Shown here: one piece after another, positions 43,625 through 45,944 of the stretch
Numbering within the stretch: the first letter of the stretch is position 1
How the letters are laid out: each line of letters opens with the position of its first letter
Assembly: GCA_951813555.1 (NCBI GenBank)
Contig: OX638344.1
Location: 3,411,076 to 3,475,075 of the forward strand
DNA length: 64,000 nt
Source: an uncultured Acidimicrobiales bacterium
Lineage (GTDB): Bacteria; Actinomycetota; Acidimicrobiia; Acidimicrobiales; Bin134
Direction of reading: 5' to 3'
Made by a program: the position numbers and the translations under genes
Notes under the pieces: generated by a model
Seen by the model: the letters and a program-made list of their open reading frames with translations, nothing else
Database searches by the model: none
Told to the model about the DNA's origin: nothing

Positions 43625-44185
43625 TTAGGCGAATCGGGCGGAGCGCATGGCCAGGAGGTCGCCGTCGGCAGCCTCTTGCACCTCGCGAGCCTCGTCGGGG
43701 CCCTTCATCCGCAGCGGGCAGGACACCACCACGTCCATCACCTGGTTTAGGCGCCCGAAGGCGATCCAGCAGCCGATGGCAAGGGTCATCTCCACCACCA
43801 ACTCGTCGCCGAAATGGCCGACCATGCGATCCATGAATTCCTGGTCGATGGACAGGTGGTCGGCGGCGAACTTCTCCGCGTACTCCAGGGCATCGCGTTC
43901 GGCCTCGCTGAAGCCGTCGTAGTCGTCCCGACTACCCACGTTGAGGTAGTCGTCCTCGCTCAGTTCATATTGCGCCAACGACGCAATGCGAGTGTCCAGT
44001 CAAACCACACACTGGTTGATCTGGGCGATCCTCATTCGAAGCAGCTCCCGCAACCGCACGGGAAGCTTGCTCTCGTTGTACACCGCGCCGCTGAACGCCG
44101 ATGCCGGGCCGGACAGCTCCGGGGTCATCATCCACAACCGATGCAGCTCCTCCTCGGGGCCGTCGGGGATCTTGATTCGTGCCAT
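43625..44185 (-). CDS. AhpD/carboxymuconolactone-decarboxylase family protein, candidate selenoprotein with in-frame TGA
   Basis: Read from ATG 44185 (behind AAGGAGGAGG), codons 1-61 give MARIKIPDG...LPVRLRELLRMRIAQINQCVV; codon 62 is TGA (44002-44000). The same frame then runs open for 124 more codons (LDTRIASLAQYELSEDDYLNV...FGRLNQVMDVVV) to TAG-type termination after RSARFA. AhpD/CMD proteins carry a redox CxxC here, so the TGA sits exactly at the second Cys (C59-V-V-U62), the arrangement of known CxxU redox selenoproteins. A hairpin follows at 43987-43969. The alternative is a single-base nonsense mutation from TGC or TGT. Selenocysteine machinery is not in the window. Confidence 0.75.
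43969..43987 (-). promoter_or_regulatory. candidate bacterial SECIS hairpin
   Basis: Minus-strand RNA 12 nt after the UGA: stem AUUGCGU / GCGCAAU (six Watson-Crick pairs and a closing U-G) with loop CGUUG. Loop size, a G among the first two loop bases, and 19 nt from UGA to the loop fit the general bacterial SECIS pattern as I know it. A lower CUC/GAG helix could extend it. Confidence 0.55.
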
Positions 44186-44252
44186 GCCTCCTCCTTGGGT
44201 GGGGTGCCAACACAGTAATTGCTCGCAGCCGATGAGCACTTACAGTCGGGGC

Positions 44253-45944
44253 ATGGGCAGCAGGTTTGATGCCGCTCGGCTGATGGCCGTCTTCGCGATC
44301 GCGGCCATATTGGTCCTGGTCGCCTGCGCATCGTCAGAGGATGCAGCAGATCCGACCACTCCGACGCCAATGCCACCAGAATCTGCTGAGGCGACGCCCG
44401 CTGAGGCGACGCCCTCGGCGTCTCCCGAGACGATTTCTGAGCCCGAGCCCACGGCCGAGACCCCGCTATTGGGCAGCCCGCCCGAGGTGGTCGCGCACGC
44501 CAACGACTGGCCGCTGCCCAACCGCGACCTCGCCGCCACCCGGGCCACGTTCGACAGCCCGATCGACTCCACCACCGTCGATCGCCTAGAGGTAGCCTGG
44601 AAAGCCGATGTCCCCGGCGGGAGCACGTGGGGCAACCTGGCCACCTCGCCGTTGATTTTGGGCGACCGGGTGTATGTGGCCGGTCTCGACGGCGGGGTCC
44701 AGGCCATCAACGCTGACACCGGGGAGATCTTGTGGACCGCAGGACGCCGGGGCGGGATGTACGGTCCGTCAGGAGTCGCTGTGGGTTGGGGCAAGGTCTT
44801 TGCCACCAAGATCGGCTGGCGCCAGCGGGGCCAGCTCATCGCGGCCTACGACGTAGAGACCGGCGAGGAGATCTGGGCCACCGACATCACCGGTGGAGAC
44901 CTCAGCGAGATCAATGTGCAGCCACTCGCCTACGACGGGTTGGTGTACGCGGCCACCAGCGGGTTCCCTGCCGGGGCACGGGGCACCATCTACGCCTTGG
45001 ACCAGGCCACCGGCGAGATCGTGTGGTCGTTCGCCACCGTGGAAGACGAAGAACTGTGGGGCAATCCCAGCATCAACAGCGGAGGCGGGGCGTGGTACCC
45101 GCCGGCGCTCGACGCTGCCACCGGCACTCTGTATTTCGGGGTGGGCAACCCCTACCCCTTCCCTGGTGCCCCCGATTGGCCGGCGGGATCGAGCCGTCCG
45201 GGCAATAACCGCTGGACAAGCGGCACGGTAGCGCTCGACGCCGCCACCGGCGAGCTGCAATGGGGCTTCCAAGCCTTCCCCCACGACATCTTCGATCGCG
45301 ACCATGTGCTGGTGGCCCTGGCCAAAGCCGAAGACCACGGCCTCGACCACGACATGCTGGTGACCGCCGGCAAGGGCGGGGTGGCGTTCGGCCACGACCC
45401 AGCCACCGGCGAGGTGCTGTGGCAAACCTCGGTGGGCCAGCACCAAAACGACCACCTGGAGAGCTTCAACGCGCCGGTTGAGGTGATGCCCGGTGCCCAG
45501 GGCGGCATAGTCACCCCCGTGGCCATCGCCGACGGAGTGCTCTACGCCGTGATGGTCAACGCCCCCAGCTACTACGAATCCGACCAGGTGAGCAGCGGCG
45601 GCGAGGGCACCCAGTTGTTCACCCGCCCCAGCAACGTGGTGGCCATCGACATCGCCACCGGCGACATAATCTGGGACGTGGAGATCATCTCCCAAATTCC
45701 CGAAGTTCCCGCCGCAGATGTGTTCGGCGGCATGACGGTGGTGAACGACCTGGTGTTCACCTCCACCTTTTTCGGCGAGCTGTTGGCCCTCGACCGGGCC
45801 ACTGGCGAGATCGTGTGGCACCACCAGGCCAAAGGCGCCACCAACGGCTGGCCCTCGGTGGCCGGTGACATGATCATCTACCCCATCGGCCTGGTCGAGG
45901 AGCCCCAAGTCCCCCACCTGCTGGCCCTTCGGCTGGGCCAGTAG
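44253..45944 (+). CDS. PQQ-type beta-propeller lipoprotein
   Basis: 563 residues from ATG 44253. Lipobox LVLVAC (Cys25), a Pro/Thr/Glu-rich linker to about residue 80, then repeated propeller blades (LDGGVQAINADTGEILW, IAAYDVETGEEIWATDI, IYALDQATGEIVWSF, VAIDIATGDIIWDVEI, LLALDRATGEIVWHH). This is the BamB/PQQ-dehydrogenase-like fold; it may be a quinoprotein dehydrogenase or a scaffold. The PQQ-binding disulfide pair is not evident. Confidence 0.85.
   Translation: MGSRFDAARLMAVFAIAAILVLVACASSEDAADPTTPTPMPPESAEATPAEATPSASPETISEPEPTAETPLLGSPPEVVAHANDWPLPNRDLAATRATFDSPIDSTTVDRLEVAWKADVPGGSTWGNLATSPLILGDRVYVAGLDGGVQAINADTGEILWTAGRRGGMYGPSGVAVGWGKVFATKIGWRQRGQLIAAYDVETGEEIWATDITGGDLSEINVQPLAYDGLVYAATSGFPAGARGTIYALDQATGEIVWSFATVEDEELWGNPSINSGGGAWYPPALDAATGTLYFGVGNPYPFPGAPDWPAGSSRPGNNRWTSGTVALDAATGELQWGFQAFPHDIFDRDHVLVALAKAEDHGLDHDMLVTAGKGGVAFGHDPATGEVLWQTSVGQHQNDHLESFNAPVEVMPGAQGGIVTPVAIADGVLYAVMVNAPSYYESDQVSSGGEGTQLFTRPSNVVAIDIATGDIIWDVEIISQIPEVPAADVFGGMTVVNDLVFTSTFFGELLALDRATGEIVWHHQAKGATNGWPSVAGDMIIYPIGLVEEPQVPHLLALRLGQ

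Follow-up and report, generated by a model that had tools for sequence, protein, structure and literature searches.

An in-frame UGA at the second position of a CxxC motif

The locus raises the question of whether a TGA codon inside a conserved reading frame is translated as selenocysteine (Sec) or terminates the protein. The window, by which we mean the whole stretch of 64,000 nucleotides analyzed (G000:C1:3411076-3475075), comes from a genome of one contig (3.81 Mb), the nearest records to which are Acidimicrobiia MAGs, including those of the marine group Sva0996 and Candidatus Poriferisocius. The 186-codon frame reads MARIKIPDGPEEEL...AQINQCVV-TGA-LDTRIASL...MRSARFA-TAA (Table 1). An earlier note on this DNA had placed the TGA exactly at the second Cys of a CxxC motif (CVV-TGA-LDTR), with 124 further codons beyond it and a strong Shine-Dalgarno at the start. 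Its description proved accurate in each detail checked: we counted 124 sense codons between the TGA and the TAA, and the Shine-Dalgarno was retained in same-genus relatives. From the gene structure, machinery, conservation and SECIS covariation we infer that the UGA of this small AhpD-like redox protein is almost certainly read as Sec. The explanation that best joins these observations, which we hold to be highly probable, is a 186-residue carboxymuconolactone decarboxylase (CMD)/AhpD-like selenoprotein with a SECIS/SelB-inserted Sec62 in its redox center.

Genes for ABC transporters and a PQQ-propeller protein neighbor the gene within the genus, as do one epoxide-hydrolase-like and one sulfatase-like gene. 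The 652-aa PQQ-propeller ORF (window 43986-45944, plus strand) probably begins at the ATG at 44253 (lipoprotein-like MGSRFD...) and not at 43986; the longer version, from 43986, lies antisense to the first part of the selenoprotein gene, UGA included. Six further places in the window came up in a crude scan for TGA readthrough frames.

Table 1. Positions of the predicted selenoprotein gene, its landmarks and the Sec-related genes of the source genome (plain numbers, window positions; C1, contig positions).
Feature	Position	Strand	Details and evidence
Selenoprotein gene (predicted), CMD/AhpD-like superfamily	43625..44185	minus	186 codons + TAA; TGA=U translation, PF02627, model fold
ATG start	44183-44185	minus	
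TAA stop	43625-43627	minus	
UGA codon 62, predicted Sec, second position of CxxU	44000..44002	minus	TGA/Cys pattern in homologs
Cys59 codon, CxxU partner residue	44009..44011	minus	Invariant, 24-sequence alignment A2
Shine-Dalgarno AAGGAGG, 4 nt 5' of ATG	44190..44196	minus	Sequence; same-genus conservation
Bacterial SECIS hairpin AUUGCGUC-GUU-GGCGCAAU (predicted), within coding sequence	43969..43987	minus	Published-model fit, covariation, absence in Cys homologs
tRNA-Sec	C1:1098531-1098622		67.5 bits (gathering score 47); ARAGORN anticodon tca (UCA)
selA	near C1:1116-1120 kb		404.7 bits (cut-off 267.9); directly followed by selB
selB	near C1:1116-1120 kb		290.2 bits (cut-off 242.25); adjoins selA
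selD (loci L017, L021)	C1:1434738-1435679	minus	352.5 bits; one in-frame TGA
Second CMD-family gene, CNIU (locus L113)	C1:1191442-1191906	+	In-frame TGA in CxxU, hairpin

Family membership and active site

The assignment to the AhpD/CMD family made in the earlier note held at the level of the superfamily, but not for canonical AhpD. When residue 62 was set to Cys, the protein scored 39.8 bits against PF02627 (cut-off 23), and its AlphaFold model (pLDDT 78.7, low only in the C-terminal tail) had its best fold matches among AhpD-like proteins of P. aeruginosa and A. tumefaciens (7xw1, 2ijc, 2gmy and 2o4d; E about 1e-4). Scores for the AhpD core domain (TIGR00778, 21.9 versus a cut-off of 27.8) and peroxid_rel (TIGR01926, 21.2 versus 81.8) were below threshold. 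The closest curated (seleno)protein model, NF053654 (GroundWater_YciW, 'YciW-related (seleno)protein'), matched 23 of 24 homologs weakly, and at 45.3 bits against a curated cut-off of 310 the window protein is not a member. No NCBIfam model covers the Acidimicrobiia clade at its own cut-off, so that automatic annotation likely cuts these genes at the UGA or starts them late.

Across the 24 homologs of alignment A2, E47, C59, residue 62 and R66 were invariant. The relay of AhpD and PA0269 consists of Glu, Cys, His/Tyr, Cys and His, of which the final His, four residues beyond the second Cys, is invariant in the AhpD-like family (PMC3141380). Like M. tuberculosis AhpD, PA0269 (2o4d, 2ijc) and Atu0492 (2gmy), the window protein has an all-helical AhpD-like fold in its model, a Glu (E47) that precedes the first Cys by 12 residues, and the CxxC spacing; unlike them, it has a predicted Sec in the second position, Arg for His at +4 (Arg66, in 24/24 sequences) and Val at the position of His132/Tyr50. 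We rejected canonical AhpD on two grounds: an Arg stands in for the catalytic His at +4, and the AhpD-core score lies below cut-off. On the first of these grounds, AhpD-type peroxidase activity cannot be assumed. With the Glu and the Cys/Sec pair kept in register and the last His changed to Arg, the protein is likely a CMD-fold thiol/selenol oxidoreductase, for which the name AhpD would exceed the evidence. As its fold and motif suggest, the Cys/Sec pair would most likely form a thiol/selenol redox center, alternating between a reduced and a selenenylsulfide state; its substrates would probably be peroxides or some other electrophile.

A selenoprotein with chemistry other than that of AhpD peroxidases, for example that of a disulfide reductase or a reductive dehalogenase-like enzyme, is possible but on balance somewhat unlikely. 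The Arg at +4 and the Val at the His132 position would suit it, as would the debrominase Bmp8 among the fold matches (6ohj, E 6.7e-4) and the naming of some relatives as Candidatus Poriferisocius, which suggests sponge symbionts; however, AhpD-like antioxidant proteins were the best fold matches, and no dehalogenation genes were seen among the neighbors. More doubtful is the broader proposal of a distinct Sec-using CMD clade with the signature Glu-(x11)-Cys-x-x-Sec/Cys-x3-Arg, common in the order and missing from curated models, that would carry out a selenium-dependent reaction other than that of the AhpD peroxidase, for example the reduction of halogenated or other electrophilic metabolites.

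Conservation of the UGA and selection on both sides

Reading codon 62 as Sec in a CMD/AhpD-like redox protein found broad backing in the homologs, which were present in 86 of the 298 genomes searched across the order. Each of the eight further genomes of the genus that carry the gene had TGA at codon 62, down to ~77% protein identity, as did all related contig loci spanning the codon. Once identical downstream sequences had been removed, 67 non-redundant order homologs remained, 44 with TGA and 23 with Cys (TGC or TGT) aligned at the exact position of the predicted Sec. In the genus itself every homolog recovered carried TGA, and Cys was confined to more distant ones. The TGA recurred across independent assemblies and species, including divergent genera.

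Coding sequence was conserved on both sides of the in-frame UGA. Compared with L026 (80% identity), dN/dS was 0.088/0.468 upstream and 0.125/0.442 downstream of the TGA, and in the other same-genus pairs dN was likewise well below dS before and after it. These data bear on the reading in which the TGA truly terminates translation and a shorter product is initiated beyond it, for instance from the TTG of a 117-aa ORF that is mechanically present at 43625-43978. We rejected such a restart as very improbable because every active-site residue would go, the product being left without the invariant E47, C59 and residue 62; in addition, the conserved Shine-Dalgarno precedes the long frame, and the codons upstream of the TGA were as constrained in same-genus pairs as those downstream.

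In a 396-genome sample of the phylum, close homologs outside the order were without an internal stop, and some distant matches had one TGA, counted at any position of the match. A plasmid search returned only homologs of <60% identity. Two same-genus genomes (G035 and G085; 1.8 and 2.2 Mb) had kept selB and were without a homolog of the gene, so that Sec presumably serves other proteins there.

The tree built from 69 homologs requires six or more Sec/Cys changes, from which it follows that Sec and Cys have been repeatedly exchanged in the family; at least three of the changes were forced by well-supported branches. About six Sec/Cys switches are hereby documented within one family tree. Several f27 genomes had two CxxU copies of the family each.

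The SECIS hairpin

The hairpin AUUGCGU-CGUUG-GCGCAAU lies where it had been reported, beginning 12 nt past the UGA with its loop 19 nt away; counted with the inner C-G pair, it has 8 bp and a GUU loop. Published rules for bacterial SECIS elements specify a loop of 3-9 nt, a stem of 4-16 bp, a G in loop positions 1-2, a distance of 16-37 nt from the UGA and an energy of at most -7.5 kcal/mol (PMC13188914). The hairpin agrees with all of these (GUU or CGUUG loop, 7-8 bp, 19-20 nt, -9.1 kcal/mol), and its stem covaries.

RNAalifold, run on the SECIS alignment, predicted only the inner three pairs because the outer pairs break in some subclades, and we therefore used a fixed-structure count and a synonymous-recoding test in its place. 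Pairs were counted for an 8-bp stem at fixed offset in 67 sequences, and each count was set against 2000 synonymous recodings of that sequence's peptide. For the window gene alone, 8/8 pairs arose in 0.45% of recodings, so that the hairpin exceeds what chance would give. The 44 TGA homologs had a mean of 7.2/8 pairs versus 4.3 expected from recoding (median p 0.0035; mean folding z -2.0), whereas the 23 Cys homologs had 3.35/8 versus 3.33 expected (z 0.0). A natural control was provided by two homologs with near-identical peptides in this stretch, of which the Cys version (L044, TRAASAMAQ) formed 3/8 pairs and the TGA version (L045, TRAASAMQQ) 8/8. Among 43 aligned TGA sequences, 90.1% of cells were paired and 43 cells were altered on both sides; 0/500 shuffles, which ignore relatedness, were as high, and slid controls were 21-54% paired. 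The recoding test and the Cys control are independent of these alignment shuffles.

The hairpin was weak in a few TGA homologs (L094-L096 and L031). In the subclade of the first three (VINQCPIU) it was poorer at the usual place, with 5/8 pairs, and their SECIS may be shifted or different. The Rfam SECIS_1 model had no matches in the source genome, and likewise none in any of the 14 control genomes.

The weakest alternative is that an otherwise CxxC gene has recently acquired a nonsense mutation, the TGC/TGT-to-TGA point mutation entertained in the earlier note, or contains a sequencing error. It requires only a single base change, and Cys homologs do exist, but it is excluded by the conservation of TGA across the genus and deserves practically no credence given its recurrence in independent assemblies, species and divergent genera, the purifying selection beyond it and the covarying hairpin present only in TGA versions.

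Selenocysteine machinery and its co-occurrence with the UGA

The source genome carries tRNA-Sec, SelA, SelB and SelD, the set that a selenoprotein gene calls for. Absence of the sel genes had been named in advance as grounds for abandoning the Sec reading, and because all of them are present, the reading stands; translation of the TGA as Sec is supported by this machinery together with the genus-wide TGA and the covarying hairpin. The active site of selD reads GAG-TGA-AGK (GAG-U-AGK), and selD is likely itself a selenoprotein. In the mechanism that we propose, SelB with Sec-tRNA(UCA) would bind the hairpin, which begins 12 nt past the UGA of codon 62, and insert Sec at this codon to yield the active site C59-V-V-U62 with the invariant E47 and R66.

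For genomes whose homolog was checked (38 with TGA, 22 with Cys only), tRNA-Sec was found in 35/38 TGA genomes versus 10/22 Cys-only genomes (Fisher p=1.1e-4) and selB in 33/38 versus 9/22 (p=3.3e-4), p-values that are optimistic because the genomes are related, from counts tallied by hand. At the thresholds applied, one TGA genome, an 83% complete draft (G170), gave no hit to either selB or tRNA-Sec, the sole such case of the 38.

Known CxxU selenoproteins and a second CMD gene

Knowledge of CxxU AhpD/CMD selenoproteins goes back to 2005, and, as the earlier note stated, they occur in marine bacteria: CxxU AhpD-like and CMD-domain selenoproteins were described in the Sargasso Sea survey (PMC1088965), 'AhpD-like 2' (PF02627, 70 sequences) in GOS (PMC2398784), and CxxU CMD-like selenoproteins are included in a 2026 catalogue (PMC13188914). 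The protein type is therefore already known, and the window gene is a well-supported new example of it. It shares with the Sargasso/GOS CMD-like proteins PF02627, the CxxU motif, a bacterial SECIS past the UGA and Cys homologs, a comparison made by description and not by sequence with proteins that derive from metagenome reads. Unlike those cases, it comes with a host genus, the full sel machinery, SECIS covariation and a Sec/Cys history. What is new is the Acidimicrobiia CxxU clade with an invariant Arg for the AhpD catalytic His. Selenocysteine is hardly present in the searchable literature in connection with Acidimicrobiia, Acidimicrobiales or Microtrichales, with at most a single mention; a protein type that first came to light in ocean metagenome reads, the CxxU CMD selenoproteins, is now placed in Acidimicrobiia with a whole Sec system.

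The source genome likely contains a second CMD selenoprotein, as judged from the sequence of the CNIU gene (CNI-TGA-KNLRF), in which a 7-bp hairpin starts 10 nt after the TGA. This paralog resembles the window protein in its CMD domain, CxxU motif, hairpin past the UGA and the same Glu and Arg positions, but is only 22% identical to it.
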